This document shows positions 545 through 25,636 of a stretch of DNA of 27,442 nucleotides, one piece after another. The stretch's first letter is position 1; every line of letters begins with the position of its first letter. Below the pieces are notes generated by a model. It did not search any database and was not told where the DNA came from. It worked only from the letters and a program-made list of their open reading frames with translations. A program made the translations under genes and the position numbers. Source of the DNA: Isohypsibius dastychi (Eukaryota > Tardigrada > Eutardigrada > Parachela > Isohypsibiidae); assembly GCA_034696485.1 (NCBI GenBank), contig JAQIWT010000224.1, positions 1 to 27,442 of the forward strand, in the 5' to 3' direction.

Positions 545-1750
545 ATGGATGGTCTATATCCAATCACTCTGCACGAGCACTCAGCTTATCCGCACTATGG
601 AGTCGAAACTTTCAAGCTATTCTGGCGTTTTGACGAGGATCGAATATTAGAACTGAATGGAAATGATCGTGTCTTCTCGTCTGATGTTGTGGGTAGAGGA
701 ACGCCATCTCGATCTGACAAGTGGCAAGTCCACATCACCCAAAGCCAGAAGAAAGCTGTGAAAAAAAGTTACAATACTTATTGTTGTCCTGATTCTCCTT
801 CGGCCCACCTCAGATTAGAGGCAATTGATGAACCAAGCGTTCGTGTTCTTGAATTGGAATACACGTTAGTGAAAAATATTGCCACTATTCGGGTTGGTAA
901 AACTAATATTCGCAGCTGTAGGTCCAAGCGTTACTCGGAACCAGGCTATGACATGTATTCCGGAGTAATCAAACGAAGTAACTGCATCACCGCTCAGTTC
1001 GATTTTCGTCGCTCCCCAAGACCGATTTTCGGAAATTTTCTACGTGAAAACATGCACTTTGAATTCACTGTCGTGGTCGGATATGCGCCTGTAGCTATGT
1101 ATGGGAATTCATCTGGTAAAATCCGCGACCTCCGTGAACTAAATGTCCTAACGGACGCAGTCCTGGTTCCCCGGAATGGTTGCGGTATCCCAGTTCATCG
1201 CGCGATTGTTTCGACTCAGTCGCAGTTTTTTTACGCTGCGCTTCGTGGAGACACATCAAATGATTCTTTGGGAAGGATCAAGATTTTGATGGACGTCGAT
1301 TCGAGTGTTTTGAATGATTTTGTGCGTGTTATTTATGGAGCCTCTTTGGATGAGTTGCCAACGGAAATGCTGCAGAATATATACGTGGTCGCTGGAAAAT
1401 ATGAAACCGGAAGCATCGAGCAGCAGGCTAAAAACACGCTGTTAAAGCGAACGTTGAAACTGGAGGAGCTGGTTGGTTTCTATATCTTCGCAGAACGTCA
1501 TGGTGAGAAAGAACTCCGAGAAAAAGCACTGAGAAGCGTCATTGCGCAGCGGGACAAGTTCTTCATGTGCGGAGGATCGGATGAAACAGACGAAGGTGAT
1601 CGAGATGGTTTTCGCGAATTAGCAGAAGATTTTACGCACGATCTTGAACTGAATTCGCTTTCTAAGAAATTTTCGGGGGCTGAGCTCTTCCCAGCTGGTA
1701 AGAGCTATGAGAACTTCAAAGATCGAAATTGTCGGTATGCTATTGAGTAA
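545..1750 (+). CDS. BTB/POZ-domain protein, intact single-exon gene
   Basis: An uninterrupted 401-codon frame from ATG to TAA. Residues 1-195 are a divergent, probably beta-rich N-terminal region that I do not recognise firmly; MATH-like is possible. Residues 200-300 carry the BTB fold signature: LTDAVLVP, then an HRAIVSTQS segment in which the dimer helix starts after a conserved H, then RVIYGA and the YVVAGKYETGSIEQQ helix. Residues 303-335 resemble the start of a BACK-like helical region. BTB proteins of this layout usually act as homodimeric adaptors for Cullin-3 ubiquitin ligases, so substrate recruitment is the likely role; that is family knowledge and is not shown here. The start is chosen because degenerate paralogues at 18939 and 23009 (minus strand) begin at the same residue with the same MD.L/MDA.. 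opening. It is the only copy in the window without a visible lesion. No intron is apparent. Confidence 0.8.
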   Translation: MDGLYPITLHEHSAYPHYGVETFKLFWRFDEDRILELNGNDRVFSSDVVGRGTPSRSDKWQVHITQSQKKAVKKSYNTYCCPDSPSAHLRLEAIDEPSVRVLELEYTLVKNIATIRVGKTNIRSCRSKRYSEPGYDMYSGVIKRSNCITAQFDFRRSPRPIFGNFLRENMHFEFTVVVGYAPVAMYGNSSGKIRDLRELNVLTDAVLVPRNGCGIPVHRAIVSTQSQFFYAALRGDTSNDSLGRIKILMDVDSSVLNDFVRVIYGASLDELPTEMLQNIYVVAGKYETGSIEQQAKNTLLKRTLKLEELVGFYIFAERHGEKELREKALRSVIAQRDKFFMCGGSDETDEGDRDGFRELAEDFTHDLELNSLSKKFSGAELFPAGKSYENFKDRNCRYAIE

Positions 1751-2239
1751 CTATCGGTGCACTGTTATATTCTCCACGGCATGAGTTTTTACGCTTTTCA
1801 TTGGCGCTTTTCAATATCGCGTTACTCCCGGAATTTTGATCTCTTATCGTGTTCGTTCGTTTTTCTTTCTTGATGGCAGTCTCTGTTGTTCCGGCTCCGG
1901 CCCAATCCTCAACGTAATGCGCCGCTTTATACCTTGTTATTGAGTTGTTAATATGCTTTCGCCTTTTCAATTCGAAATTTATGAGCTGGTTCGGACTTGC
2001 GCATGTTCTATGGTTGTATTGCGACTGCATACATGTATTTAGGAGTACTATATATAAAGTGCACAATTTCAAACTGAAACACGTTTTCGCGAGTTAGTTA
2101 TTGACCATAAATGGCTGTGAAGCGATTAGAGCTTACAAGACACACCGCCACAGTCAAATTTCGTCATTCTTCTGTCCATTGATCTCGTGCCTGTGGCGTT
2201 CAGGTCTCATGCGCATAGACACGATCGAACTCATCGCCG
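1751..2239. other. Intergenic stretch after the BTB gene
   Basis: Presumably the 3' flank of the BTB gene, rich in T on the plus strand. I see no convincing coding sequence; the open frames on the minus strand lack family features. A TATA-like string lies at about 2048-2056 but there is no clear gene for it to serve. The last part (2215-2239) may already belong to the PRISE relic that follows. Confidence 0.4.
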
Positions 2240-2640
2240 AACAATTTGATCTGATTAACCTATGTCATGAACATGACCTCCTGCTCCTGCATCGGAATTT
2301 ATTCAGCTGTCTAAAAAACTTGGACTTCCGCTGACCTTTCTCGGAAACCCTTTCAACTGGGACATGTTCCAGAAGCACTCTTCGGCGGATAACAATGCGA
2401 AATTCCAGCTGTATGTCAGCACTCACGAAAAAGCCGGGAATCGGGCGTATAACATCAACGGCGATGTGTGTAAGTATCGCCTTGTCTGGCCGAAACTCGC
2501 TGAGTGATGAAGAATACATTGGGATTGAATTTTCCGCAATTTGTTTTTGTCCACATATTAAGGTTTTCCGCTTTCTGGTCTGCTCTCCACCTTTTCCACC
2601 GCTCTCCACCGTCAGCGAATTGAAACAAATATTATGCAGC
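2240..2640 (+). pseudogene. PRISE-like reductase, C-terminal fragment (copy B)
   Basis: Matches the second half of the PRISE-like gene at 6197-7803. A run equivalent to MNMTSCSCIGIYSAV is followed by a stop and frame change, then LGLPLTFLGNPFNWDMFQ, then KAGNRAYNINGDVCKYRLVW and WPKLAE. The NGD...WP pattern is typical of the C-terminal substrate-domain region of progesterone 5-beta-reductase/iridoid-synthase-like short-chain reductases. A splice donor in the same place as in the longest copy (CTGA then gtgatg, 2503) and a following segment that still aligns to its exon 3 show that the intron was retained. The Rossmann N-terminus is absent. It runs straight into a BTB relic of the same orientation at about 2660, although the two families are unrelated. 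Confidence 0.75.
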
Positions 2641-2659
2641 AGCGTTTAACGGACTACAT

Positions 2660-3100
2660 CAAACAGTTCATCGGAACGGATCAAGATATTGATGGACGTC
2701 GATTGGAATGTTTTGGAGGCTCTTGCTCGTGTTGTTTATAGAGTATGCTTAGATTAGAGAAGCTGCCCAGTACTGGAGAATATGTACGTGGTCGCCGGAA
2801 AATATGAAGCAGGATGGATCGAGTCGGTCAGTTTCTTTATCTTCGCAAAACATCACGGCGAAAAAGAATTCCGAACAAAAGCATTGAAAGCGTCACTGCT
2901 CATCGGGAGAAGTTCTTCATGAACGGAGGGTTGGATGAAATGGACGAAACTGATGAAGGTGTTTTTGAAGAGTCCGTAGAAGATTACGAACGATGTTAGA
3001 CTGAGTGCTATTTTTAGGGAGTTTTCGGAGGCTGAGGTCCTCTCAACTGCGAGAAGCTATGAGAATTTCAAAAAATCGAACACTTCGGTATGATATCAGT
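2660..3100 (+). pseudogene. BTB-domain gene, decayed C-terminal half
   Basis: Starts abruptly in sequence equivalent to residue 244 of the intact BTB gene at 545 (RIKILMDVD, here with a frame slip before it). It continues through remnants of VLEALARVVYRVCLD, then a stop, then MYVVAGKYEAG, a deletion, and FFIFAKHHGEKEFRTKAL. The end resembles the REFSEAEVLSTARSYENF tail. There are at least one nonsense codon (TAG at about 2754), a deletion of roughly 25 codons after the GKYEAG segment, and several frame changes. It lies immediately downstream of a PRISE fragment, so its 5' half was lost by rearrangement. It cannot encode a BTB protein. Confidence 0.8.
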
Positions 3101-3500
3101 AACCTCCACCGGTAGTTATCACACTGTTATGTTCTCCGCTTGCGGTGTTGAACCAATTAATGATGGATACCTTGACGTCAAAGTCCCAGATGCCATTAGA
3201 ACAACTTGAATTAACAAGACTGTCACTATTCATCTTCACATCGTGCATAATTCAAGAATAACAAGAACCAGACTGACGTTTTAAGATAATTCGAAAATCG
3301 GAAGTCGGATTTGATTTACAATCAGTTGTTTTGCAGGAAAATTGCGTCAACAATAGATATCAACACGGATAAATTGCACTTTATAAGATCTTACAACAAC
3401 AGGAGCAAATAGACTATTCTGTCAGGATACCAAGAAAATACGTACTCTCAACCAAAACATCCAAACAAAAAAAAATCAGAAATGAACCACTTTTCTCGAA
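3101..3500. other. Intergenic, no feature recognised
   Basis: AT-rich sequence between two convergent relics (BTB on plus, DRG1 on minus). No coding signal, hairpin or repeat stood out. It should include the old 3' flank of the DRG1 copy. Confidence 0.4.
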
Positions 3501-5227
3501 CTACGCTTTCTTGATAATCTGAACAACATCCTCGTCATTCAACACATGGTTCTTTCCCACTCTTTAAGGCTGATGTTTAACTGATGATCCCCACACAAGT
3601 GCAATTTTGAAGTCTTTCAGCAGCGTATTGTGAATTTTCGTACAAAAATCGCGAACAGTAGTCCGGTCGGAAGAGAGAATAGCCGGCGAATCGTAGTCCG
3701 GCAGCTGACCTCGAGGTTTCGTGTAGACCCGCACAAGTTTCAGCAATTCCCATAATTTCTCCAGCACTAAAAAACCGAGATATTGAAACTTCAATCAAAA
3801 ATCGAATTTCCGGCGAATTCTTACGGTCGTGGAAGTCCAATTTGTGGTAAGCGGAAATCGGAACGCAATGAGGAATTTTGTAGACGATATTGAGCTCTTC
3901 AATGGAAATTTGATCAATTTTGTTGAGGGTGTAGATACATGGCATATGAACTCGATTTCCTTCAACGATATCATCAAATCATCCGCAGTTGCATCATAAC
4001 GCAAAGTGATGTCGGCGTTATGGATTTTGTATTCTGCGAGGATCGCGCGGACAGTTTCCAAATCCAATTCAGACTGCGGAACCTGAAACAGAACCAAAGA
4101 TTGGAAAACCAAAAAAAAGATTAAACAACATGCGAATTTACCAGCATGTTCAAATTGATGCCTCTTTTTTCTTTCTGTCGGAAACCAATATTGGGTGGCT
4201 GCTTATTCAGGCGGATTCCAAATCCAGAAGTTTCTTATGCTGGAGAGGTTTGAGTACATCGAGAACGATAAAAATAAAACTGCATGTCCGCGCAACTGCA
4301 AATACACAAAAAAATATTTATCGTCCGCTTTTCACCATTTCACAACGAAAAAATTCAGAAAATTAATTTTCAAAGATTTCCAAATACTGCAAGAATTTAC
4401 CGGCTATAACTTGGCGACCACGACCCGTTCCGTCCTTGGCGCCTTCAATAATTCCCGGAAGATCCAACAGCTGAATTTTGGCTCCCTTGTACTTGATAAC
4501 ACCTACAATTATATCAAATTAGCGTTCTGTTTCCGTGAAAATATGACAAAATACACCTGAGCGCTCGATGAAAAGGACTTCAGTACTCAACATTTCCCGA
4601 CGATAAAATATGTTCAGTATTTTTACCTGGAACAGTTGTCAGTGTCGTGAATTCGTAAGCCGCAACCTCAGAATAAACCCCAGCGAGCGTAGTTAGAAGC
4701 GTAGATTTTCCAACCGAAGGAAATCCTATAAAACAAATAGATAGATTCCCACTCAATTAATGAACTCCAGATTTTCGAATCAGCTTTCGGTTTCCAAATA
4801 TGTCGAAGCAAAATCCGTGAGCAAAATAGTCAGTTCTGGTACCGATTTCAACCGTAACATATAAATCGGTCGTATCAAAGATCCACTCACCCACAAATCC
4901 AATACGAGCGTCTGAAAGCAGATTAGACACTTCGTAATCTCTGAAAGAAATTTCAAAGTGAGAAGATGCTAATATAACCTCCAGTTTTGGCAACGTCGAA
5001 TCCTTCACTGGTGCCGCCGCCACCTCCTTTCGGTGTGATCAGTTCTCGTCGCAGTTTAGCCAATTTAGCTTTCAGTAAACCCAGATGGTAAGATGTGGCC
5101 TTGTTCTTCTGGGTCCTGTTCATCTACAAACAAAACATGCCCGTCTCAAGAACGACGAAGAACCTCTTGTCTCGATTTGAATACATACCTCAGCCTCGAT
5201 CTCGGCGATCTTCTGTAACACCGACAT
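3501..5227 (-). pseudogene. DRG1: DRG1-type developmentally regulated GTPase, intron-containing but disrupted
   Basis: Eight exons can be laid out on the minus strand: 5227-5189, 5123-4979, 4911-4891, 4725-4627, 4502-4401, 4295-4142, 4082-3825 and 3766-3501, all with GT-AG introns that keep phase. They give the full DRG/OBG-family order: [33 protein letters not shown], the G1 motif GFPSVGKST, the G3 motif [12 protein letters not shown], the NKID G4 motif within [13 protein letters not shown], and a C-terminal TGS domain (QLPDYDSP...[10 protein letters not shown]). Three lesions break it: a deletion in exon 6 near 4222 (about 16 bases or 5 codons lost, shifting frame between HKKLL and FGIRLN), a 1-base deletion near 3972 (DDLI), and a premature TAA at 3564-3566 where CAA is expected, 20 codons before the family's usual end. 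DRG1 normally binds Dfrp1 and acts on ribosomes. Retained introns make this a duplicated, not retroposed, copy. Assembly error is the alternative, but three independent lesions argue against it. Confidence 0.88.
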
Positions 5228-5375
5228 CTTGAATGATTGATAAACCTCTTTCCTAATAAGACAACAGATGAGTAGAATTCCAAGATCGCGACAATAACTT
5301 CCAGAAAATAATTTCCAGAACTTGAACTAAAACTGTGAGACTTCAAGTCCAAATCAAATTTTCATGCACGGAGAT

Positions 5376-5454
5376 GGTAATTGGTAATCGTATTCAGTAG
5401 TACGCAGTAACCGTAACGGTGAGGCACGATACCAGTTACTCTTACCAAATTACC
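5376..5454. repeat. Short fold-back element beside DRG1
   Basis: The ends ggtaattggtaa (5376-5387) and ttaccaaattacc (5442-5454) are inverted complements apart from one base, and the inner sequences also pair in part (gtatt/gatacc). At about 80 bases it resembles a very small fold-back or MITE remnant. It sits between the DRG1 start and a PRISE fragment. Confidence 0.45.
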
Positions 5455-5464
5455 GCTGCTGAAG

Positions 5465-5716
5465 CCGGAACTTGGATTGCCGCTGACCTTTCCCGGAAAT
5501 CCTTTCAACTGGGACACGTTCCAAGAGCATTCCGCGGTGTACAACAACGCAAAATTCCAGCTGTTTCTAAGCACACATGTAAAAGCCGGGAAGCAGGCGT
5601 GTAACATCTCTACCGTCTCGTTTGGCCGAAACTCGCTCAGTAAAAAATATTTACATTTTGTGTTCTTCGCAAGATGGTCCTGTTCCTCCAGATATTTTGG
5701 TATCCCTCCTTCTGAC
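5465..5716 (+). pseudogene. PRISE-like reductase, C-terminal fragment (copy C)
   Basis: The plus strand reads LGLPLTFPGNPFNWDTFQEH, then NNAKFQLFLSTHVKAGKQA, then, after loss of about 25 bases including the NGD codons, YRLVWPKLAQ. The intron donor follows at the same position as in the longest copy, and the next exon restarts at about 5690 with YFGIPPSD. The homology stops near 5716, where a hairpin begins. The fragment lacks the N-terminal cofactor domain. It faces away from the start of the DRG1 copy, 238 bases away, and the same DRG1-PRISE pairing recurs near 15.4 kb. Confidence 0.8.
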
Positions 5717-5720
5717 CAGG

Positions 5721-5751
5721 AACGCTACTACCGTAGTGCCGTAGTAGCGTT
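5721..5751. repeat. Perfect 11-bp hairpin
   Basis: aacgctactac (5721-5731) and gtagtagcgtt (5741-5751) are exact inverse complements around a 9-base loop. It marks the point where homology of PRISE copy C ends. Confidence 0.7.
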
Positions 5752-5815
5752 CGGCTTTGCAACTACTAGTGCTGTGTGTTCGTTCGTTGTCCTGCTACAG
5801 TTATACATTGATACT

Positions 5816-5831
5816 TTGGTTGTACAACCAA
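5816..5831. repeat. Palindrome ttggttgtacaaccaa
   Basis: A perfect 16-base palindrome preceded by ac/t. The same core sits inside a longer 26-base perfect palindrome at 10962-10987, so it is a recurrent element and not a chance fold. Confidence 0.65.
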
Positions 5832-6196
5832 TCTTCCTTGGAGACCACGGGATTCCCCAGGTTGTTTGAATTGCCATCAATTGCCTAATAAAAAGATGAC
5901 CTACCCCACCTAACCAACCCCGCAACCCTGCAACCCAGCTATCCCGTTACCCCGCGCGTTACTACCCCGCCCCGCCAGCCCAGTCTTTTGACACATCCCT
6001 GTTCGGGAACCGATAGTCCGGTGGTAAATTATTAATGTCGACGGTTTGTTACCCAGTTTCAAGGATTTTCACGATGGAGAACAAGAGCTCCGAAGACTGT
6101 TCACAACGGCACACTACGGTAAACCTAACTGAATTTGATTTTGTATCAGATACAGACATTCGGTTCTGGTAACTCTTGACACGTTCTTCAATACCA
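5832..6196. other. Non-coding stretch with a C-rich tract
   Basis: No gene seen. Positions 5899-5985 are strongly C-rich on the plus strand, with irregular repeats of ccccg, taccccg and aacccc; the G-rich complement could form quadruplex-like structure. The rest (5990-6196) lies downstream of the stop of PRISE copy A and looks like its 3' flank. Confidence 0.45.
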
Positions 6197-7803
6197 TCAC
6201 AACGCAAGATGCACTGCGTTACTCTTCTTATCCAAAAACGAAAACGGATACAAAAGTCTAATATCTCTATCCGATTCAACTCGCTGACCAATCGGAATTT
6301 CCGTCGGGGCAGAAACGGTGAAAAGCGGGTCGGAAAGCGGTAGACCGAAATATCTGGAAGAAACAAGCCTGTTTGGCGAAAAACAAAAGCCGAAAATGCT
6401 TTCTTTTTCTTACTGAGCAAGTTTTGGCCAAACGAGCCGGTATTTGAACAAATCTCCGTTTGTAATGTTATACGCCTGATTTCCGGCTTTTCCGTGTGTG
6501 CTGACAAACAGCTGAAGTTTCGCGTTGTTATCCGCCGAGGAATGCTCTTGGAACATGTCCCAGTCGAAAGAATTTCCGGAAAAGGTCAGCGGAAGTCCAA
6601 GTTCCTTTTGGACAGCCGCGTATTCCTTTTGGAAGCCATGTTCATGACACTCGCTAATCGGAATAAATATTGGGCAAGCGGATTCCGATTTCGTCTGCTG
6701 TCTACACAGGGTCTCACCTTTGGAAACGCCGATAATAAGACCGGGTCGAGTGTCGATCCATTGAACGTTGTGTTTGCCGGCATATTCGACCAAGAAGGTC
6801 TAGTTGGTCGTAGTAAAAATTTGGATCATTCGGCTCGCGGCAAATCTTCAACGAACGGCATTGGGGCTGCGGCGAGATGGCAGCGATAGTGCTGGAATAC
6901 AAACAAAAATACATGTCAATAATTCGTCGAAACCTGTATTCATCATTGCGGACAAGCCTTCCAAAAAACTGCTGAGTTTAAAAGAAATTAAAAAAATTAA
7001 TTAAAAATTAAATGAAGAAAAAAGATATCGAATGTAAAACTATGAAAGTTACTAGTAAATAATGGATTAATTGGAACTGGAAATTTCTGATTTTTTCTGC
7101 ATGAATAAAAGTAAAACAGGAATGAAAAGAAATTTTGCGAAATAAGTAGAGACTGATTAATCATAAGAAGTTTCTTCGGGTTTTCGGAATGCTTATCTAA
7201 AACTGAACTAGAATTCGAACTGGATAGAAAACAGATTGAATGGAAAATAACAGAAATTAAATTATAACTACATCAGAAATTCCGAATTTCTGATTTGTTT
7301 TTGTTTGTGGCTGTACTTCAATCACAGGTCATCGAAAAACCAGAAAATTGGGTTGTAAAAAGAACGGTACGATGAAATCGCAATTTCCTACAAGAGCTGA
7401 AAAATACCGTAACGAAAATTACCTTCAGACCAGTTCGGAGCATGAAGACTTCCAGATGTTTTGCAACAGCGACAACCGCATCCAACGCTTTGTGCAATAA
7501 AACGGTGTTGACTTCCGCCTGATTTTTTGCATTTTTTCCTTCGATATAAGTGTAGTGAAAAAACGTGGGTGACCTTTTCACCGCCGGCATCCTTGAGAAT
7601 CTTCGCGATTTCTCGGACGTCTTGAGCGAGAATATCGAAGGCAGAAACTGCAGTCTAGAATCAGTCAGGTTGACTTGCTGCGGTTTGCGAGAAACGGCGA
7701 TGATGGAACTCCATTCCCAGGGCGAAGTCTCGATGAGCTCTTCGAGCATAGCATGACCGGAAATGCCGTTTGCAACGAAAACCAACGCAGTTTTTGGAGC
7801 CAT
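6197..7803 (-). pseudogene. PRISE-like short-chain reductase, near full-length but frameshifted (copy A)
   Basis: Three exons: 7803-7423, 6891-6414 and 6353-6197. Exon 1 starts MAPKTALVF with the Rossmann motif VANGISGHA, in which the first glycine is Val where copy E has Gly. Exon 2 has HYRCHLAAAPMPFVEDLP, DPNFYYDQLDLL, VEYAGKHNVQW, RPGLIIGVSKGE, LGLPLTFSGNSFDWDMFQ and NGDLFKYRLVWPKLA. Exon 3 has YFGLPLSDPLFTV. This order matches the progesterone 5-beta-reductase/iridoid-synthase (PRISE, SDR75U) family, NAD(P)H-dependent reductases of enone substrates; about 340 residues compares with 350-390 usual. Lesions: paired frame slips in exon 1 (about 7560-7640), a slip after FVEDLPRAE, an extra base before VEYAGK, and a slip after MNMASK. 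The introns (531 and 60 bases) splice in phase. It is the longest of five copies. The activity of the ancestral enzyme in this animal is unknown. Confidence 0.85.
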
Positions 7804-8110
7804 TCTAAAACGGTGTTTTAGATTGTTTTGGAAACGGTGACAAAAATCAAGGTAAGAAGAAGCTGAATGCCAAATGACAACAATAACATGGAAAATCTTC
7901 AATATTAGCGCAGAGCGGAAATCCAAACTAGCTCATAATTTCCAATCGATTGTTGGCGGCAGCCTGCTCTGAACAAGATAAAAAGTGGACTATGACGGAG
8001 CAGAATTAAGGGGGACAAATACAGGCTATCATCAAGAATGAAAAGAAATATGAACGAGGGCGATAAAAGAAATCAAGATTTAAAGAATAATGCGATACTG
8101 TAGAAGCTGC
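7804..8110 (-). repeat. Upstream flank shared by PRISE copies A and E
   Basis: The sequence upstream of copy A resembles the sequence upstream of copy E (21404-21720): aagtggactatgacggagca matches aagtggaatacgatggagca, and the following gggacaaatacaggct matches gtggacaattagaggct. Duplication therefore included the promoter region and was not limited to the coding exons. Copy E carries an extra inverted arm here that A lacks (see 21643-21699). Confidence 0.6.
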
Positions 8111-9344
8111 AATCTCTTCAATGCAAGAACGATATACCGGTATGCATAACTTCAAACCAGCTCAGAAATTATTTTTATTTGCCACAGCCCATGCGATTGC
8201 TACTTGCATGTTCTTGTCTTCCAGTCTGTCGGTATGCAATCACCCTGTGGTCAACTTATATGCCGGAAAGGGTTTGAATGTATTGGCTGAACTCCGAGCA
8301 GCTGTGGCCCAACATTTGTGTGCCACAATTCCAAAGTGTGTCTCCCATTGTCGATGCTTCCGGACAGTTCCGAGTGGATCATCAAACTGGATCTCAGCTC
8401 TGTGAATGTTCGAATCCAGCAATGCATTCACAAAACGGCTGTATTCCGAACTCCACAGACTGCCTCCTTGAACCAGGTTCCCACTCGCAGCCATCGATTG
8501 ATTCCGCTTATGTCTAGGTTCCAGTAGCAGCGGTTTCTCTAAATTTGCTAGTCGGACGTCATCCTCCGCCAGCATGTGCACCGTTGCCTTTATGGAACAT
8601 GCTGCAGCCCAGCCAACAACAACAACATGGTAATGCGTCTCTACCTCGGTTAGCAGGAAATTCTGACCCATGCCACCCGTATGATCAAGAACAATGTTGA
8701 ATTACCGAAAGGAACATGAGGTAGAGTACAACGACCACGGTGAGGTGCACTGTGCGATCGGCTAGCAAAATTTCCACCCAGTGATTGATCCCGGTGTGTC
8801 AGTACGTATGTTCAAAATCTTCAATGATGACGTTTTGCTCAGCATGTCAGCGACTGGTGTGTTTCATTTCAAAATCTCTTTTGCACTGATGTAGATTGTT
8901 TTTCCCTCACCTGATCTATGCAGATCTGCGCTTTTTTCTGTTTGGCAAGAATATTGATAAAAGGCCGCTTGGAACGATACTGGAAAGGTCATCAAGGTAT
9001 CCGCTTCACGTTTATTGTCGTAATCGGTAAGCTACACATCTTGTAAATCTGTGCTTCTTTACATGTGAACAAAAGATGCCAGCGAAAAACAAAACGATTT
9101 TAAAAAGACGGAATTATTCAACACCTGTTAAAAATCGCAAGTAAAAAAAAATCGTACGAGAAAATCAGGCCTGCATACGTTTACAAGAAACATGTGGTCA
9201 AGAAAGTTCGTTCAGTTATGACGGTTTGGGCAAATCGATCATCCATCAAGTCTTCATCCATTTTCCTTCGTTCAAAATCCGTGATGGTACGAATGTATCT
9301 AAATGAAAATAAGGCCATTGCGAATGGAGGACAGCTTTTGAAAG
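8111..9344. other. Region without an identified gene; weak ORF at 8240-8671 (-)
   Basis: The longest open stretch is 143 codons on the minus strand at 8240-8671. It contains RLANLEKPLLLEPRH, which might be a worn leucine-rich repeat, but no repeat periodicity holds and it lies beyond the TIR end of the Toll relic. I do not call it a gene. 8700-9340 shows nothing recognisable on either strand. Confidence 0.35.
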
Positions 9345-9527
9345 TACTGTACTATCTATCTCGATGTCTTTGGCCACTTTTTGGACCGTGGTGGTAATTT
9401 ACACCCGGCCATTTTATCTTACCGATGCAGGGTACCACCATACGCTGGCTTACGGTGGCTTGTTGCCCCAGTGGTAAATTACCACCACGGACTAAAAAGT
9501 GGCCAAAGACATCGAGATAGTACAGTA
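9345..9527. repeat. MITE-like element with ~53-bp terminal inverted repeats
   Basis: The arm 9345-9401 (starting tactgtactatctatctcg) and the arm 9475-9527 (ending cgagatagtacagta) are nearly perfect inverse complements, differing by a 4-base atct insertion and a few substitutions (ttggac/agtcc). The ~73-base centre has no coding potential and holds a second partial inverted repeat (ggtaccacc/ggtggc). The size, long arms and lack of genes fit a non-autonomous fold-back element. The flanking ta could be a target duplication but is too short to be sure. It lies just outside the TIR end of the Toll relic. Confidence 0.7.
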
Positions 9528-9544
9528 ATGATTCTCCAGAATCG

Positions 9545-13654: not shown

Positions 13655-13683
13655 TCATAACGATGACAATTTCCGGTAGACCT

Positions 13684-15720: not shown

Positions 15721-15760
15721 AAACTGGGATGGAAGCTGGACACTGGATTGTGACTTGCAG

Positions 15761-16153: not shown

Positions 16154-16159
16154 TGATAT

Positions 16160-16737: not shown

Positions 16738-17100
16738 TTATTTAAAACATCGGCTGTCCGTTTCTCGTTCAACAGCACTGAGGGCATCCAAGTAGCCTTG
16801 TGGTCTGTAGGTGAATGTACACAAGGGTACAGATGGGTAGAATGGATAAAGTGTGATTTCCGTATGATCCATGCAGTAAGGGATCAAGGTCGCATCCAAA
16901 ATGCTGTTGATCGCCACAGTTTGTGCCGAGTCAGTTCGGACGGTGGCTTGTGGGTGTACACTTGCACATTGCCACGTTCGCAAGATTAGCAATCCTCACT
17001 TGGCATCATACAGACAGCGGAATTCCACTTGAATAAACCTGGGTTCAATGTAGAAATACTGTTTCCTGCCCGGTTCTGTCAGAACATATTGTGAAAGCAT
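16738..17100 (-). CDS. Unidentified cysteine-containing ORF pair, possibly spliced
   Basis: From ATG at 17100 the minus strand reads LTEPGRKQYFYIEPRFIQVE and FRCLYDAK, then meets a TGA. A 39-base GT-AG interval (gtgagg...tgcaag) would remove the stop and continue in frame with VHPQATVRTDSAQTVAINS, IPYCMDHTEITLYPFYPS and VPLCTFTYRPQGYLDALSA to a stop at 16740. Regularly placed cysteines suggest an extracellular protein, but I recognise no domain. The intron would be very short; a nonsense mutation in an old exon is the alternative. Confidence 0.3.
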
Positions 17101-18134
17101 AGGTCACTCGCATATCAAATAATAAGAACCAACTTAAAAACTCTCCCAACCAGAATCTGTGGTCCTTGTCTCCGTGGCAGCTGATAATCTGCTGGTTGTA
17201 ATAAATGTAATAATGTTGTAATAATGTGCACGAAGCCGCACCTGGAACGCGAAATTGAAGTTCTCAGGCTAGGGAAGAGTTAACTAGGTCCCAGATAGCC
17301 CAGCCCTGTGTGGACAGTCATGACGTTTTTCTATACTTGTAGGTCTTCGGTCACTTCATTAAGCCCGCAACCATAAATGTACCATATGCCAAGATTCTGA
17401 AAAGAAAACGTTCGATGTTGTAATAGATACTGCAGATGCTCAACTGCTCCTCTCGACGTCCCATGGGTAGGGGGTTGGTTAAACAGGGAATCACACCTGG
17501 TTTCGCGGATTTTTTCGTGCATTCATAACATAACGTGCGATCATAACAAGTGTGGTTAGCGCTACAAGCAATTGCTAGGATTGTTCTGAGGAGTTAGGGT
17601 ATAAGTTTGAACTGAGCAGCTTTTACATAGCTTAACAAGTGTGCATTAACATTGTCCATCTCCTCACCTAGCGGCACACTAAGTAAACTATACAAGTTTG
17701 TCAGTACGATGCGCACACGAGAAAACTCTCCGGGCTGACAACGACCCCACGAGTTTCTAGTTTCTTGAGGTTCGATGGGGATTTGAACATTTCAAATTGC
17801 GTCTGAAGGAGGTTCGGTCTCGTTGCCATTTGGTGATTATGAGCATTCGTCAACTGGAAGTTTTGAACAGGGCTTTCAACGTTTTCTATCATAGTTATGA
17901 AGGGTCATGCTTGATATTTGTGTCGACTCCCTGGAATTTTTAGGAATTTGAAAGATAAGAAAACAGCTATATTCCATAACCAGTTTAGGACGTTTTCTCA
18001 TCCTTAACGAATTCCCTCGTCTTTCTGGACGAGCAAACTCAACCTTGGATCTAAGATCCAGGATCAGTGGTGCCAGGTACCAATGGTTAAGTCATTCCTA
18101 TCTTACATTCTGCGTGTAAATTTTGCCTACAGTA
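17101..18134. other. Region without an identified gene
   Basis: About 1 kb with no coding signal I can support on either strand. A tandem taataatgt-type duplication occurs near 17200-17227 (ataaatgtaataatgttgtaataatg). Confidence 0.4.
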
Positions 18135-18939
18135 CATTTAGCTTCCTGCTCGATGCTTCCGGCTTCATATTTTCCGGCGACTACGTATGTATTCTGCAGC
18201 ATTTCCGTGGGCAACTCATCTAAGCAGGCTCCATAAGTAACACTCACAAAAACATTCAGAACACTCGACTCGAGTCGACGTCCATCACCTTCTTGATCTT
18301 TTCCGATGGATCTTTTGATACATCTCCACTAAGTGCAGCATGAAAAAATGGCGACTGAGCCGAAATAATGACGCGATGAACTGGAATGCCGCAGCCATCT
18401 CGAGGAACCAGGATGGCATCAGTCAGGACATCCAGTTCACGCAGTGTCCGGATGACGCTACATGAGTTCCCATACATTGCTACCGGCGCATTTCTGACCA
18501 CGACGGTTACTTCAAAGTGTATGATATCTCGATTGCGTTTTGTTGGGACAGGACTGAAATCGAATAGACCGGTGATGGAGTTACTTCCTTTAATAACCTC
18601 CGGATATATGACATAGACCGTTTTTGAATAGCGTTTGTACCTAAGATTGCCAGTATTAGTTTCGTTCATCCACATAATGACAACAGTCTTTACTAGCATA
18701 ACAATAACCCACGTAACTTTTCTCCACAGCTTTCTGAGGACTCTAGGAAATATGGACCCGCCATCCGTCGGCTCTAGATGGCGTTCCTCGTGAAACAATA
18801 TCAGATGCGAAGACGTGATCATTTCCATTGAGCTCTAATATTCGATCTCTTGAAAACGCCAAAATAGCTTGAATATCTCGACTCCATAGGGCGAGTAAGC
18901 TGATTGCTCCACGAGGCTAATTGGATTCGATGCATCCAT
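18135..18939 (-). pseudogene. BTB-domain gene, decayed and 3'-truncated (copy 3)
   Basis: Starts MDASNPISLVEQSAYSPYGV, parallel to the intact BTB gene at 545. A 1-base deletion at about 18854 shifts frame after FWRFQE. A TAG replaces a sense codon in the HIS*SPQKAV region. The N-terminal domain continues open through GNLRYKRYSK and HFEVTVVVRNAPVAMYGNSC. The BTB core follows (LTDAILVPRDGCGIPVHRVI, SAQSPFFHAALSGD). A 5-base duplication (tcgag) near 18275 then shifts frame, after which GACLDELPTEMLQNTYVVAG-equivalent codons are still visible. Homology stops near 18135, so the C-terminal ~110 residues are missing. It is closer to copy 4 at 21800-23009 than to the intact gene. Confidence 0.85.
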
Positions 18940-19165
18940 GGTGCAAATGAAACTGGAAATGATGAGTAACATCTGAATTATCTGAATTGTATGTGGAGCA
19001 CGAGCTACTCTGGAGCACACGGATACAGGTGAAGTGAAGAAGCTTCGAGCTTGACCAATGGTCAGCCAAAATGAGCAAATACTGTTGTTTGAAACGCGTA
19101 ATCCTCCTAAATTTTTCACCACAGATCCACGTGTAGCACAGTACTGTACAAAATGACACCGGCGA
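18940..19165 (-). repeat. Upstream flank shared by BTB copies 3 and 4
   Basis: gtgaagtgaagaagcttcgag (near 19030) matches gtgaagtgaagaagctccgag at about 23147-23167, and tggtcagccaaaatgagcaa matches tggacagccaaaacgaggag (about 23225). The copies were therefore duplicated with their 5' flanks and later drifted. Confidence 0.6.
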
Positions 19166-19901
19166 ATAACAGCTAACATTGGAACTGTTGCAGGGATAAT
19201 GCAATCAGACCCGACATCTCCACGTATTGTCGATGTTCGATGCCGGTAAGATCTGTTCCGAAGTACTAGTCAACAAGATTCTACGAGCCAGTCTTCTATT
19301 AGTAATCAATGTAGAACATGTAACATGTAACTGAGTCATTGTTTATGCTATATTTTGCTCTTACGACTGCCTGTTTAATTATTTTGCATGGACAATCCAC
19401 ATCAGTTCTTGCTTTCTTTTCAGATTCAAACACGAATGTGGAAGCGCATTATACTCAACCGAAGCGTTGGAAAAGGATCCAAATTGCATGATGATTTATA
19501 TTGATTCAAAAAAGAGAAGAAGAGGTGGCTGGTCAGAAAGACTGTCCGATTCGCATCGTTAAGTGAACAATGTCAGATTGAAAGTGGATTTGAGGTGACT
19601 GTTGGGGACCCTGTCATTGCCGGGAAGAGTATTTGCCAGAGTATTTCGGGTTTTCGCCGGTCCAACGTCTTCACGGATGCCATTCTAGTATCCAGCGACG
19701 GCAAAGAATTCCCGGTCCATCGTATCATTATCATTTTAACTGGCGCTTCTTTCTGAATTTTTCAATTGCCATGATACGAAAGAAAGTCGGTCGGGAAAAT
19801 TCACGAGTCCAGACGGGGCTCATGATTCTCTGGAGCGCCTTATTCGTCTCGTGTATGGCAATCGTTATAAGGTACTCATTCAAGTTCTCTGCTGAAGGAA
19901 T

Positions 19902-19940
19902 GTGTCTGTAGCGGGTGAAACTTTCACCCGCTACAGACAC
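19902..19940. repeat. Perfect 19-bp palindrome, 1-base loop
   Basis: The 19 bases 19902-19920 (gtgtctgtagcgggtgaaa) and 19922-19940 (tttcacccgctacagacac) are exact inverse complements around a single C. The left arm is BTB coding sequence; the right arm looks like its inverted copy at the start of the insertion. Confidence 0.8.
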
Positions 19941-20160
19941 GACGGAAAACACGACGGATATTCTATTGCTTGCTTTATTCCGTCTCCGTCGCCGTCTGTC
20001 TAAAAAAACTCCGGCCGTCCGTCTTCCAAAATTTCCGGCCGTCGCCGTCCCGTCTCACAATTTTTCCGTCCCGGTTAAAGACGGAAAAAGACGGAAAGAC
20101 GGAAGGAGCCGGAAAAAGACGGCAATACAGGACTTTCCGGCAAAAAGACGGCCCATGACT
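19921..20160. mobile_element. Fold-back insertion made of CCGTC/GACGG repeats
   Basis: About 240 bases with no coding capacity. The left half is rich in ccgtc units (ccgtctccgtcgccgtctg), the right half in gacgg units (gacggaaaaagacggaaag), so the whole can fold back on itself. It sits inside a BTB codon run and is flanked on both sides by gggtgaaa (19913-19920 and 20161-20168), an 8-base direct repeat that fits a target-site duplication. The left end is also inverted against the host sequence (see the palindrome at 19902-19940), so the exact element end is ambiguous. The paralogue at 25370-25400 lacks it. Confidence 0.6.
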
Positions 20161-20419
20161 GGGTGAAAGATATCAGCTGACCAGCGCTATGCAGCAGATT
20201 GCCGACGAGCTGCATAAACGAACGCCACCTGCCGAAGACCTTGCCGATACTTATTTGTTTGCGAAACATTTTGGATTCAACAAGATGGAGAGAATGATCT
20301 TGAAAGAAATGGTTGAAGAATGGAAACATTTCGTCGATGCCGGCGAAATGGCGGAAATCGAAGGACTGATCCGGGACTTCTTAGACTATTTCACGCACGA
20401 GTTCGTTTTCGAAGAATGA

Positions 20420-21049
20420 TGATTGCTGCGAAATCCTCCAGTGTTTTTCTGGTTGGTTAACCTTTTGCTAAGACTTCACAGCCTGTGTGATTCCAACGAT
20501 TATACTGTATTGCCCAGTATCGTAATTGTGATATCAGACTGACCAGCTGCTGGATTTGTGCTTAACTTTCAATATCTTACACATTTAGCCTGATGAGAAA
20601 ACAAGATATATTCATATATTCAACATGTTGTTCAGTTCCACTTCCCATGACTGAAACCGGGGGATAATAAAAACTGTCGGTTTCCAGTTTTAGCCACTCG
20701 TTTTCTGGCCTGCGTCGAAGCGCCATTTGAGTTCTTCCGGATCCTCGGACGACTACCAAGTGAGTAATCACCTACACATGCGCATGATTCCGGGTGGAAA
20801 AGTTGCTTCTCGATTTTGATTGCAATGATCCAAATACAGAGTACTTGGCGGTAGCCAGAAAGGTTTTCGAACCTGTCTAGATCAAACGGAACTCGCGAAT
20901 TCATGTTGATTCTCCTGCCTATGTGCTTTAAACAAAATTTCAAATTCGAGATTTGAAATGATGATAAAATTATTAAATTAACACACACGGATTCAGCTAT
21001 GATAAACGTAGAAAATTGTATTTGCTCGAAATTGTAGAAGTATGGAAGT
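20420..21049. other. Intergenic, no feature recognised
   Basis: The 3' flank of the BTB relic, then sequence without a gene I can support. The minus-strand frames at 20577-20988 have no family features. Confidence 0.4.
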
Positions 21050-21403
21050 TACCTTTTTTGAGAAATGGAACAACTGCGTCCGAGGGTTTTGTAGCAAGAT
21101 ACAGTAGTGTCCACTTCCGCTTGATATTTTGCATTTTCCACTTCAATGTACGTAGTGACAAACAGGGGTAACCTTTTGACCGCCTTCATCTTAGAGGATT
21201 TTGCCTGATGTCCTCTTCAAGACTATCAACTGACAGGGTTTTATATCTACCACAGCATCGTTCAGAGTGATTCGTTACGGTTTGCGAGAAACGGTGAAGA
21301 CCTCGTCAAGACTTCCCAAAGGCGAAGTCTTGACGAGGTATTCAAGCATGCCATGACCGAAAATGCCATTCGCACCGGAAACCAAAGCGGTTCTTGAAGC
21401 CAT
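21050..21403 (-). pseudogene. PRISE-like reductase, exon-1 fragment (copy E)
   Basis: Starts MASRTALVSGANGIFGHGML with an intact GxNGxxG Rossmann motif, unlike copy A. It continues EYLVKTSP, then an inverted duplication replaces the expected bases, then FTVSRKP followed by a stop. Remnants of KVTPVCHY and ENAKYQAEVDT are still alignable to exon 1 of copy A. The exon ends at a gtaact donor at about 21050, close to the donor of copy A. No exon 2 or 3 was found on this side. Upstream it shares flanking sequence with copy A. Confidence 0.8.
21300..21339. repeat. Perfect 16-bp hairpin inside PRISE copy E
   Basis: acctcgtcaagacttc (21300-21315) pairs with gaagtcttgacgaggt (21324-21339), loop 8 bases. 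In copy A the matching place has ordinary coding sequence on one side only, so one arm here was probably created by inverted duplication of the other. Confidence 0.8.
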
Positions 21404-21642
21404 TCTTCTGGGAAGGTGTTCTTAGAAGTATTGAAAACTGCAACGTTATCGAGGTCAGCAATGCAGAAGCCAACAGTAACACATACTGTAACCTGAACTC
21501 TTCAGTGCTAAGAACAGTGTATACGGAAGTTCAAACCAGCTCATGAATTTCATATCTGTTGTGGCCAGTCTTCATCAAATCAAAAGTGGAATACGATGGA
21601 GCAAAAAAAACGTGGACAATTAGAGGCTGTCACAAAGAACGC

Positions 21643-21699
21643 GTTATCGTGTTCGTTCATATTTATTTTCGCGGAAAAAATATGAACGAACACGATAAC
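21643..21699. repeat. Perfect 22-bp hairpin upstream of PRISE copy E
   Basis: The arm 21643-21664 (gttatcgtgttcgttcatat plus tt) and the arm 21678-21699 are exact inverse complements around a 13-base loop. Upstream of copy A only the right-hand arm has an equivalent (aaatatgaacgagggcgata), so the left arm appears to be a new inverted copy. Confidence 0.8.
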
Positions 21700-21799
21700 A
21701 GAAAACTCCAGGAATAAGGCTAAAGAATGCACTAATGAATAATGTACGAACTTATGACATGGACGATACAATAGCAGGGGAACTATCGCCCGTAGTTAA

Positions 21800-23009
21800 T
21801 TACCGCATAACGTAGCGAAATCTTCGATCTCTGAAATTCTCATAGCTTTTACCAGTTGAGAAGAGCTCTGCCTCAGAAAATTCCTCGGAAATGGATCTCA
21901 GTTCGAGATCGTTCTTGAAAGCTTCTGCAGATTCATCAAAACCATATTTATCACTTCCTTCCAATTCATCCAGTCCTTCGCACTCGAAAAACATCTCGCG
22001 ATGAGCAATGACGCTTTTCAATGCTTTCGTTCTGAGGTCTTTCTCGCCATGACGTTTTGCGAAGATATAGAAACTGACCAGCTCCTCCAGTTTCAATTTT
22101 CGCTTTAACAGCGCGTGCTTAGCCTGCTGCTGGATGCTTCCGGCTTCGTATTTTCCGGCGACCACGTATATATTCTGCAGCATTTTCGTGGGCAGCTCCT
22201 CTAAGCAGGCTCCATAGATGACACGCGCAAAAACATTCAGAACACTCGAATCGACATCCATCAAAATCTTGATCTTTTCCGATGGATCCTTTGATGCATT
22301 TCCACTAAGAGCAGCATGAAAAACCAGTGACTGAGCCGAAACAATGACGCGGTGAACTGGAATACCGCAGCCGTCTCGAGGAACCAGGGCCGCATCAGTT
22401 AGGACATTTAGTTCACGCAGTGTTCGGAATGCACTACATGAGTTCCCGTACATAGCTGTTCGAGCATATCCAACCACGACAGTCAACTCATAGTTTACGT
22501 TCTCTCGTTGACGATTTCCGTAAACCAGTCTTGCGGAAGGACGAAAATCAAACAGAGCGTTGATGCAATTATTTCTTTTAATTACTCCGGCAAAGATGTG
22601 AATGGCCGGCCCCGAGTAACGTTTAGACCTACGATTGCAAATGTTAATTTTACTTGATCCACCTAAAAGCAAAAGTCTTTACTAGCCTGTATTCAAGTTC
22701 CAGAACACGAACACGTGGTTCATCAATCGCTTCCAATCTCAGTAAAGTCGAAGGAAAATCCGGGCAATGCAGATATATTGTATCCTTTTTCTTCACAGCT
22801 TTCAGCGGGCTTTTAGTGATGTGAACCCGCCATTTGTCAGCTCTAGATGGCGTGCCTCTTTGAACAATACCAGATGAAAAAACACGATTTGATCCATCGA
22901 GCTCTAATAGACGATCCTCGTCAAAACGCCAGATTAGCTTGAACGTTTCGACTCCATAGTGCGGATAAGCCGAGATCTCGTGCAGACTGATTGGATATAA
23001 ATCGTCCAT
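21800..23009 (-). pseudogene. BTB-domain gene with a single frameshift (copy 4)
   Basis: From ATG 23009 to TAA 21800-21802, this is close in length to the intact BTB gene. It opens MDDLYPISLHEISAYPHYGV; the N-terminal domain is open to EYRLVKTFAFRWIK and then stops. One base too many near 22650-22665 shifts the frame, after which it runs open to the end: INICNRRSKRYSGP, YELTVVVGYARTAMYGNSC, the BTB core LTDAALVPRDGCGIPVHRVI and FARVIYGACLEELPTKMLQN, and the tail SEAELFSTGKSYENFRDRRF. Apart from that one lesion it looks young. A sequencing error or a tiny intron could in principle restore it, but copy 3 and the 545 gene show the same spacing without an intron. Confidence 0.85.
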
Positions 23010-23335
23010 GGTTCGAGAAATAAGCGGTGGGACACCAAAGGACTCTGTTGGTTTTCTGAATCGATCACTACCTTGGAGGAATAGTCTGAATCTAAAGACG
23101 AAAGTGACGAAGTGTACTTAGAGCAACCAGGCAGCACGAACTCAAGTGAAGTGAAGAAGCTCCGAGAATGATCAGAAACCATTAAACATGTAGACTGTGT
23201 CTTTGATTGTTTGGATTGACCACTGGACAGCCAAAACGAGGAGAACGATTGTTTGATGAGCTAATTGCGCGCGTACTTACCAATGCCAGCCTTTTCATCG
23301 CAGGTCCGGGTGCAGCACAATAGAATAAAGTTGAT
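23010..23335 (-). repeat. Upstream flank of BTB copy 4, shared with copy 3
   Basis: This is the partner of 18940-19165. It includes gcaggtccgggtgcagcaca at 23302-23321, which matches the acagatccacgtgtagcaca stretch upstream of copy 3. It probably contains the former promoter region. Confidence 0.55.
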
Positions 23336-24420: not shown

Positions 24421-24524
24421 GAATGGCGGCTCAAATAGGAGAAAGTTGGAGAGCAAATGATCGACGCGGTTACTCCTCACTTCTTCAACAGAATTTCTCC
24501 TATAACCGCCTGGGATTGGGAGTC

Positions 24525-25340
24525 ATACATACGTGGCGCATTCTACTATATATGCATGCAAGATCAGCAAACCATGATTATTCTGCTACTGCCGTGTGGA
24601 GGTCCTCATCGCGGTAGTCGTTTCGGTAGGCATTGTCGATGTGCAATTTCGAATTATTACTGAATAAGAGATTAAATTAGCTATTACATAAAATACTGCT
24701 GGATAAAATAATGATGATAATTTAGAATCGTTGCATAAAAAATGCTTTCGGTATCGAATATTCATTTGTTTCTGAAGAAATAAAACGTACTGTATATTTT
24801 AGACTGTTTTTTCCAGATTCAAGCACGATCGCGGAATTTATAATCATCAACCGATTGGCCAGAGAAAGATCCAGATCATGCCATAATTTCCATTCCGCAA
24901 CAATTTGTAGCGTGAATTGCATGAGAGAGCCGGATACGTGGCGCGTTCACTTTGTACGTGCAGGATCAGCAAACGATAGTTATTAGGCTACTGCAGTCTA
25001 GGTCGCCACGTCATCTTTACGCATTGTCGATGTTCGATGAATTCGCGTTCTACTTGATAACGTAACAGTACGGTATTGTCCAAATAGTCTATAAATAAGT
25101 AGCAAGTTAAATATAAGTGTTTTTTGAAACTAAGAGAACTAGGTATTTCTGCTAAAACATGTGAGCGGTTGCTGTTAAGCAGTGGGAAGCTGGCGGAAAT
25201 TGCTGGAGCATCGTACATGAATCTGCTCATTGCACTAAAATTTCTATTTTTCAGGTAGAACGGTGTTTTGTTTATTTTTAGATTTATGCACAAGCTCGGA
25301 GATCGTTATACTTAACCGAATGGCAAAGCACTAGAGGTTA
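24525..25340 (+). pseudogene. Tandem N-terminal fragments of the second BTB subfamily
   Basis: 24525-24660 and 24934-25060 are related (tacgtggcgcattctactat against tacgtggcgcgttcactttg; ggcattgtcgatgtgc against cgcattgtcgatgttc), and a third piece lies at 19213-19240. They carry remnants like PDTWRVHFV, comparable with DKWQVHI of the intact BTB N-terminus. After each there is an acceptor followed by a short exon: ttttccag at 24811-24818 then IQARSRNLIIINRLARERS, and tttttag at 25275-25281 then a similar worn stretch. This is a tandem duplication of about 400-450 bases of a BTB gene 5' part. No intact frame survives. Confidence 0.6.
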
Positions 25341-25636
25341 CCCATCCAAGTTCTCTGTTGAAGGAGGTGTTTGTTGCGGCTGAAACATATGGGCTGACTA
25401 ACGCAGTGCTTCGGATTGCTGACGAGCTGCAAGGACAAACATCCAGCGCTGAAGATCTTGTCGATACTTATTTGTTTGCGAAACATCAGCCACGCAAGCT
25501 GGATAGCATGTTCTTGAAAACACTAGTAAAAAAGTGGAAACATTTCATGCTACCCGGCGGGCTGGTTGAGATCGGAGAACTGGGCCAGGAATCTCTTCAT
25601 TCGATCACGATTCACGAAGAAGATTATTTTCGGTGA
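25340..25636 (+). pseudogene. C-terminal fragment of the second BTB subfamily
   Basis: Reads SSLLKEVFVAAETYGLTNAV, LRIADELQGQTSSAEDLVDT, YLFAKHQPRKLDSMFLKTLV and KKWKHFMLPGGLVEIGELGQ, ending at TGA 25634-25636. This parallels the end of the relic at 20189-20419. The C-terminal part is open, but the BTB core is missing: the N-terminal remnant at 25282-25335 joins directly to it, which implies an internal deletion. It gives the uninterrupted sequence across the site where the 19921-20160 insertion lies in its paralogue. Confidence 0.75.

Follow-up and report, generated by a model that had tools for sequence, protein, structure and literature searches.

How did pieces of three gene families, BTB, PRISE-type reductase and DRG1, come to lie truncated and intermingled on one contig of the tardigrade Isohypsibius dastychi? 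We analysed the whole stretch of 27,442 nucleotides (the window, C224; other C numbers are contigs of the same genome). The pieces counted in a sequence-only reading were all recovered, namely six of BTB, belonging to two families (BTB-A and BTB-B), five of PRISE on both strands and two of DRG1 (Table 1). It is very probable that the window was pieced together, as a mosaic, from duplicated blocks of low copy number and that these pieces are the remains of repeated copying of a block of the type found on C341. One neighbouring BTB-DRG1-PRISE block, still present on C341, would have been copied repeatedly, block by block, via unequal exchange or replication-based copying, and the copies would then have undergone deletion, insertion and fresh joining. 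Our verdict is ordinary old segmental duplication with birth-and-death.

Table 1. Features of the window
Feature	Position	Strand	Description
Block A	531-8110		decayed copy of the BTB-DRG1-PRISE region C341:989-10477
BTB-A gene	545-1750	+	single open frame, 401 aa; Pfam BTB 42.5 bits
PRISE relic, fragment 1	2216-2659	+	later exons with intron; C341:8967-8500, 76%
BTB-A relic	2657-3103	+	C-terminal part, joined directly to PRISE relic
DRG1 copy	3501-5227	-	full length with introns, broken
PRISE relic, fragment 2	5467-5717	+	inverted relative to the PRISE copy ~600 bp further on
PRISE copy	6268-7803	-	without last exons, frameshifted; Pfam PRISE 28.3 bits (cut-off 27)
Block B	8233-14917		decayed copy of C251:14416-19209 reversed, 74-82%
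MITE-like inverted repeat	9343-9532		inside Block B, missing from C251
Paralogue-less stretch	10893-13457	+	missing from C251, which has ~650 bp there
DRG1 3'-end relic	15334-15470	-	second DRG1 piece
DRG1 3'-end relic with PRISE fragment 3	15334-15709		order and orientation as 3592-5717
PRISE relic, fragment 3	15519-15709	+	beside DRG1 3'-end relic
Block D	15709-18097		copy of C1423:6720-4478, VWA gene and downstream DNA, 75-76%
BTB-A relic	18122-18939	-	frameshifted, without 3' part
BTB-B relic	19413-20438	+	split by insert 19921-20160
Repeat insert	19921-20160		flanked by 8-bp direct repeat GGGTGAAA
PRISE 5' relic	21070-21405	-	upstream DNA to 21720; contains hairpin 21300-21339
Hairpin	21300-21339		perfect, inside PRISE 5' relic 21070-21720
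Hairpin	21643-21699		22-bp perfect stem at the joint of PRISE 5' flank and BTB-A 3' flank
BTB-A copy	21797-23009	-	nearly full length, one frameshifting indel
BTB-B relic	25316-25636	+	second BTB-B piece
MED12 piece	26073-27442	+	Pfam Med12-LCEWAV; PDB MED12 E 5.2e-7; reaches contig end

When window positions 531-8080 were compared with C341:989-10477, broken collinearity was found over coding and non-coding DNA at 74-86% identity, interrupted by insertions, deletions and unrelated stretches. The order and orientation of BTB, DRG1 and PRISE on C341 are those of the window's left 8 kb. On C341 both DRG1 (5855-7730, minus strand; 8/8 exon pieces) and PRISE (8200-10520, minus strand; 5/5) are open. 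The BTB there is frameshifted by one 2-bp insertion and C341 is therefore not a pristine parent; the direction of copying was inferred from which copy is open. The window's DRG1 is broken by an early stop and by two deletions that shift the frame. DNA resembling DRG1 or PRISE turned up on two contigs only, C224 and C341 (among the best 39 of 73 candidates for one piece search), and a PRISE profile search of the contigs gave the same pair.

Introns are kept in DRG1 and in three 3' PRISE fragments, and non-coding flanks were copied alongside the genes, supporting the proposal of DNA-level duplication. Processed pseudogenes arising by retroposition were rejected because the DRG1 and PRISE copies keep their introns. 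Two pairs of duplicated flanks had also been proposed. The first, 7804-8110 with 21404-21720, was reproduced as a match of 7505-8038 to 21107-21639 (68%), which by eye continues towards 8110 and 21720. The second, 18940-19165 with 23010-23335, was not, the window-to-window match ending at 18942/23012 at E 1e-8.

The two DRG1 copies bear on when the window's copy failed. DRG1 matches that of Paramacrobiotus and Hypsibius at 92%, which points to a tardigrade genome. A nematode origin, which the BTB family might suggest, is set aside on this ground; a cuticle-collagen search returned nothing, as did its controls. Between the window and C341, differences number 18/359, 6/359 and 62/357 at the three codon positions and 138/760 in non-coding DNA, with third-position divergence of ~17%, a codon-position skew that indicates long constraint. 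Of 18 polarised amino-acid changes 17 fell on the window side, and one more was ambiguous. These counts suggest that the window DRG1 was under selection for about three-quarters of its life and then failed late. Identity between C224 and C341 is patchy over DRG1, the longest identical non-coding run being 47 (shuffle P=0.0076); this may reflect gene conversion, which would blur the dates, and intron constraint confounds the longest-run test. Changes in the BTB-A relic at 2657-3103 are evenly spread over the codon positions (38/147, 39/148 and 36/148), which would mean long neutrality, and the pattern in a Toll copy within Block B (65/469, 73/465 and 94/462) looks like that of a long dead gene; both have probably been free of selection for a long time.

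Some pieces appear to have been rearranged before they were copied. PRISE fragments 2 and 3 end at the same PRISE base and are mutually closest (144/166 shared columns), and fragment 2 lies by eye within an insert of ~305 bp that is missing from C341. The pair at 15334-15709 was likely copied from a block that had been rearranged beforehand, with part of the interior deleted. Furthermore, PRISE adjoins BTB in the same orientation at both 2216-2659 and 21070-21405 and does not do so in C341, which calls for at least two ancestral arrangements. The PRISE gene itself clusters next to sequences from chytrids, mucoromycote fungi and a rotifer, and is a likely, though not proven, horizontal acquisition nearest to fungi.

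The BTB pieces have a wider set of relatives. Among the window's BTB-A copies, only the gene at 545-1750 is both open and full length; it aligned to C246:12989-14230 with 0 frameshifts and 0 stops. The window's BTB-A copies are not one another's nearest relatives, several forks of the tree being poorly supported. Paralogues of the BTB-B relic at 19413-20438 were found on C246, C1179, C1291 and C877 (BTB array). A word-based protein search gave no BTB homologue among 5043 candidates. The MATH-BTB expansions of nematodes are a fast-evolving BTB family with many clustered copies and relics; unlike these, the window's BTB sequences showed the BTB domain only and no MATH domain in Pfam.

The remaining blocks come from other neighbourhoods, with partners on C251, C1423, C387, C246, C1179, C1291, C877 and C419. 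Block B includes a Toll-like receptor (LRR and TIR, by Pfam on the C251 frames) as well as a frame of WAP type. Frameshifting indels and stops number 17 and 3 in the Toll copy, and 5 and 2 in the WAP copy. Within it, the stretch 10893-13457 has open frames resembling an intron-bearing gene and gave no match among the best 39 of 73 candidates. Block D begins inside the VWA frame, and the remaining 98 codons are open with no frameshift or stop; hence not all pieces are visibly decayed. Its VWA partners are on C1423 and C387, and more VWA-family matches occur on C356, C697, C836 and C161. DNA paralogues of the MED12 piece were found at C1179:1-1337 and on C419 and C1291.

Taken as a whole, 19,662 of the 27,442 bases (~72%) have a low-copy paralogue, be it at a second place in the window or on a different contig, a figure that excludes the repeats 9343-9532 and 19921-20160 and is built from hand-entered intervals, a few of whose ends are rounded or come from by-eye alignments. 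The searched assembly is 30 Mb and the contigs seen were all at least 10 kb; the E-values of the gene-piece matches are far below chance. Several partner contigs have blocks in common with one another, which together with the low-copy paralogues supports the idea of a duplication-prone region. That the concentration of copies is unusual, as had been suggested, held only in part: a second copy lies inside the window for 27.3% of its length, less than in C246 (43.9%) and more than in C341:1-20000 (3.3%) and C127:1-10000 (0%). C225:1-10000 was internally duplicated over 50.9%, as a satellite-like array that makes a poor control, and a Pfam scan of its three forward frames gave zero matches. No telomere-like arrays of six motifs were seen in the stretches examined, the contig being only 27 kb and the motif perhaps not this animal's. 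Scans of the window for tRNA (bacterial code) and Rfam families returned nothing.

Segmental duplication in the strict sense calls for at least 90% identity over 1 kb. Blocks of at least 1 kb in the window have 73-85% identity to their partners, below this threshold, and the duplications are old. In keeping with birth-and-death, further copies of at least 1 kb occur elsewhere (C341, C251, C1423, C246 and C1179), the copies carry introns and non-coding flanks, and BTB at 545-1750 is open beside broken DRG1, PRISE, Toll and WAP. The window thus resembles segmental duplications and birth-and-death clusters in its kilobase blocks with introns and flanks, its mix of open and broken copies and its partners on multiple contigs, and differs from them in uniting at least four gene neighbourhoods within 27 kb and in a rearranged piece that was likely re-copied. 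It offers a base-level view of serial block copying, with open, likely late-dead and long-dead-looking copies and with the joints located.

Two described systems are close to this arrangement. Like the human subtelomeric duplicon mosaics described in PMC2323237, the window places duplicon blocks of varied divergence side by side; unlike them, it has no telomere repeats that we could see. In Hypsibius dujardini and Ramazzottius varieornatus, horizontally acquired genes occur in tandem-duplicated clusters (PMC5531438), and the part of that report drawn on names dioxygenases, UDP glycosyltransferases and hydrolases and not PRISE. The likeness lies in several local tardigrade copies of a likely foreign gene, here PRISE; the difference is that the window's copies are mostly broken, some inverted, and mixed with native genes. 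PRISE, being likely fungal, would be a further foreign gene to enter an animal duplication cluster. Among titles and abstract beginnings in the open-access literature we found none on this region, on PRISE in tardigrades or on fold-back joints in tardigrades.

Searches with pieces of the window returned no other contig that unites the two sides of any of the joints at 2657, 8110-8233, 15709 and 21640; one of these searches scored the best 39 of 73 candidates and the rest scored every candidate. The hairpins at 21300-21339 and 21643-21699 are not present in the aligned parents. The window has three hairpins (one at a repeat edge) against eight in ~145 kb of other stretches, a weak excess. Six of these eight control hairpins lie in dispersed repeats, five in the MITE family (C281, C950, C841, C149 and C522) and C225:2017-2101 in another, and those of C147 and C341 lie in no recognised repeat. 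With that weak excess over controls, the two window hairpins are likely template-switch scars, and under block copying some joints may have formed where the polymerase folded back onto its own strand and left hairpins behind. Template-switch mutations between inverted repeats have been described in coding genes of yeast strains (PMC8604942). The feature shared with such mutations (PMC8604942, PMC8794818) is perfect inverted arms where the aligned parents have none; compared with the yeast work, the window has two cases only, in a gene relic and at a duplication joint of an animal. A broader proposal treats the window as a hub of duplication in a tardigrade, with joints that arose by fold-back template switching, the breaks perhaps coming from drying and rehydration and the polymerase copying nearby strands inverted. 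This would scatter inverted gene fragments, leave perfect hairpins at joints and shuffle a horizontally acquired fungal gene among native genes; we consider it unlikely. If hairpin scars were common at tardigrade joints, genome shaping by post-drying repair would become testable.

Alternatively, the tardigrade could be asexual, hybrid or polyploid, and the window and its partner contigs could represent a single locus in the form of diverged haplotypes or subgenomes, with the window's set decaying. Block A does have a single collinear partner with DRG1 open there, at the third-position divergence given above and with long constraint on both DRG1 copies, and C341:10478-20000 is partly collinear with C419 (88-89%) and C1291 (83-86%). 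However, four BTB-A copies on one contig cannot all be alleles, and C341 and C251 extend past the shared parts, so that no single partner spans the joints. A single-copy set of proteasome genes has 14 members and a doubled set 28; proteasome domains matched 9 contigs at E 1e-3 (23/23 candidates; short exons can escape). Nor was a partner of at least 80% found elsewhere for C718:4013-5502, chosen for the longest open frame among 22 loci, for C127:3400-10000, or for C225:6900-10000 (among the best 39 of 61 candidates), although absent partners weigh little in an assembly of 30 Mb made up of such contigs. Diverged haplotypes are quite improbable.

Misjoining of reads from paralogous loci would also produce a mosaic, and duplicated stretches do lie at or near the first bases of C127 (56), C877 (119), C1179 (1) and C341 (136), as in short-read repeat assemblies. 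A misjoin needs exact overlap at the joint, whereas the window's blocks have 65-89% identity to their partners overall, and the longest exact match to 10 partner contigs (part or whole) is 64 bases, the run shared with C1423 that starts at 15709 and covers one side of that joint only. Scars such as the common end base of PRISE fragments 2 and 3 are unexpected from random misjoins. An artefact is very improbable.

The sequence-only reading had also suggested a large mobile unit carrying the fragments. Such a unit, whether a giant transposon or one resembling a Helitron or Pack-MULE, would have captured pieces of BTB, PRISE and DRG1 and transported them as a set. It would account for unlike fragments being directly joined (15709 and 2657) and for a rearranged block being copied again (15334-15709), but is scarcely credible, as none of the matches scored places the joints on a second contig, their two sides match different contigs, DRG1-like and PRISE-like DNA was found on just the two contigs named above, and the copied stretches hold whole intron-bearing genes with ends that differ each time. 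Terminal repeats or target-site duplications were seen in the window only at the small elements 9343-9532 and 19921-20160, the latter with its 8-bp duplication, and neither holds BTB, PRISE or DRG1. The first matches at least 29 other contigs; the second is missing from C877 and C246, and copies of 19958-20161 occur on C744, C1018 and C1411 at 94-95% identity.

Self-comparison of the window recovered BTB sequence in six stretches, PRISE-type reductase (PRISE) in five and DRG1 in two, spread over both strands and with introns retained, so that the recurrence described in the sequence-only reading is real in its main counts. Of the two pairs of duplicated flanks that this reading had also described, 7804-8110 with 21404-21720 was found again, whereas no match at E 1e-8 linked 18940-19165 to 23010-23335. 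Two families, BTB-A and BTB-B, make up the BTB stretches.

Stretches of the window assigned to the two BTB families
Family	Positions
BTB-A	545-1750, 2657-3103, 18122-18939, 21797-23009
BTB-B	19413-20438, 25316-25636

With the BTB-A protein of 545-1750 as query, a word-based search across 5.8 billion proteins gave no homologue at E 1e-3 among 5043 candidates; the same database names three tardigrades for DRG1.

When the assembly was searched (30.4 Mb, 1648 contigs, the window being all of contig C224), low-copy paralogues, either on other contigs or at other places in the window, were found for 19,662 of the 27,442 bases (71.6%). A second copy within the same stretch covered 27.3% of the window, compared with 43.9% of contig C246, 3.3% of C341:1-20000, 0% of C127:1-10000 and 50.9% of C225:1-10000, the last being mostly a satellite-like array of diverged repeats (2936-5090, L053). 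The genome search gave no match elsewhere for C127 from about 3400 to 10000, and nothing for the 1490 bases of C718 beyond two short C990 matches (67-74%). The region is thus tangled, with controls too few to gauge how rare this is. No telomere arrays were seen with six motifs in the stretches of this assembly examined. A phage tail collar domain (Pfam Collar, 40.4 bits) occurs in an open 426-aa frame of C718 (L039:1-1278), although this is an animal assembly.

One partner of the window was contig C341, on which BTB, DRG1 and PRISE are neighbours. Positions 531-8080 and C341:989-10477 were collinear at 74-86% across coding as well as non-coding DNA, with gaps interrupting the match. All eight DRG1 and all five PRISE exon pieces of C341 are open; its BTB has a single 2-bp insertion. 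In the window, DRG1 carries an early stop and two frameshifting deletions, and PRISE is frameshifted and without its last exons. For the C341 DRG1 model, the closest among the matches listed came from Paramacrobiotus metropolitanus and Hypsibius exemplaris (92% identity each) and Ramazzottius varieornatus (90%), ahead of insects (85%), which points to a tardigrade genome. Furthermore, 15334-15709 holds a DRG1 3′ end and then a PRISE fragment, arranged and oriented as in 3592-5717. The PRISE fragments of the two places share their end point to the base and are mutually closest (144 of 166 columns shared); a stretch that was already rearranged seems to have been copied a second time, in shortened form, at 15334-15709. 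Three neighbours would have been copied together and their copies broken and copied again, which is most likely why the same three families recur. C341 also carries a tandem duplication around a PRISE exon end (9402-9606 and 9660-9868, 82%) and, immediately upstream of BTB-A, a 40-bp perfect palindrome (821-860).

The codon positions suggested when the copies failed. Window and C341 DRG1 differed at 18/359, 6/359 and 62/357 of positions 1, 2 and 3, and at 138/760 outside the exon pieces; third positions therefore changed at about the non-coding rate, with change at positions 1 and 2 restrained. Polarised by outgroups, 17 of 18 amino-acid differences fell on the window side, with one more ambiguous and 8 of 364 codons unreadable. 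By a rough estimate, the window DRG1 has spent about one quarter of its lifetime unconstrained. PRISE was intermediate (20/294, 12/292 and 46/290). The BTB relic at 2657-3103 (38/147, 39/148 and 36/148) and the Toll-like copy (65/469, 73/465 and 94/462) look long dead by the same counts. With DRG1 late and these two early, the region seems to mix late and early failures. DRG1 introns at 4290-4400 and 3740-3801 were about 97% identical between copies, which may reflect conversion or constraint, and other introns were nearer 75-80%.

Duplication extended to further genes. Positions 8233-14917 correspond to reversed C251:14416-19209 (74-82%), where a WAP-type frame and a 504-aa Toll-like frame with LRR and TIR domains (16581-18095, L074:2282-3796) are open; the window copies have 17 frameshifting indels and three stops (Toll) and five and two (WAP). 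Positions 15709-18097 match reversed C1423:6720-4478 (75-76%) and also part of C387; the C1423 match begins at a sharp joint within a VWA frame that stays open over its remaining 98 codons. VWA matches for 15709-15990 also lie on C356, C697 and C836, and the gene therefore belongs to a wider family. BTB-B and its surroundings have partners on C246, C1179, C1291 and C877, and part of MED12 (26073-27442) on C1179, C419 and C1291. Outside its shared part, C341 is collinear in places with C419 and C1291 (83-89%), which links the partner contigs into a network. A MITE-like inverted repeat (9343-9532) matches at least 29 other contigs. The stretch 10893-13457, inserted relative to C251 and without a paralogue among the matches scored, has open frames and looks like an intron-bearing gene, with a sub-threshold Endonuclea_NS_2 match (E 0.064).

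By eye, an insert at about 5455-5762 with an inverted PRISE fragment is absent from C341. The joint at 15709 overlaps by about 1 base, and that near 21640, between BTB-A 3′ and PRISE 5′ flanks, lies within a motif (TTATCG...TCGTTC) partly common to both and carries a 22-bp perfect-stem hairpin found in neither aligned parent. A 16-bp-stem hairpin in the PRISE relic (21300-21339) is likewise missing from aligned parents, and a third (19902-19940) lies at one border of a small inserted repeat, which has an 8-bp direct repeat. This insert (19921-20160) splits BTB-B and has an inverted flank copy at its left edge. The three hairpins would fit fold-back template switching; their excess over controls is weak (eight in about 145 kb of other stretches, five in one MITE family, one in another dispersed repeat and two in neither).

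The large mobile unit proposed earlier as carrier of the fragments is unlikely, because none of the window's joints of unlike fragments turned up on another contig among the matches scored (39 of 73 candidates for one of four window pieces), and DRG1-like and PRISE-like DNA was confined, among these, to C224 and C341. Diverged haplotypes are unlikely to explain everything, given that copies lie inside a single contig, the partner contig differs block by block and proteasome domains match 9 contigs only. Misassembly is also unlikely, the longest exact match to 10 partner contigs (in part or whole) being 64 bases. The window is best read as the product of ordinary segmental duplication of old date, combined with birth-and-death and local rearrangement, in a tangled region of the genome.

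The origin of PRISE was examined separately. Its best 9 of 421 matches were eight fungal sequences (40-46%), which we take to be chytrids and mucoromycotes, and the bdelloid rotifer Rotaria (43%); no tardigrade name appeared among the best 120, many of them nameless. A 27-row tree was built from the query and 26 sequences picked from the 120; in it the query shared one fork with these fungi and Rotaria (support 94/93, under the program's own star), branching beside their group and not inside it. These data suggest that PRISE was likely, though not provably, acquired horizontally from an early-branching fungus; the tree gives no direction. PRISE has introns both in the window (6268-7803) and on C341 (8200-10520; L049, L050).
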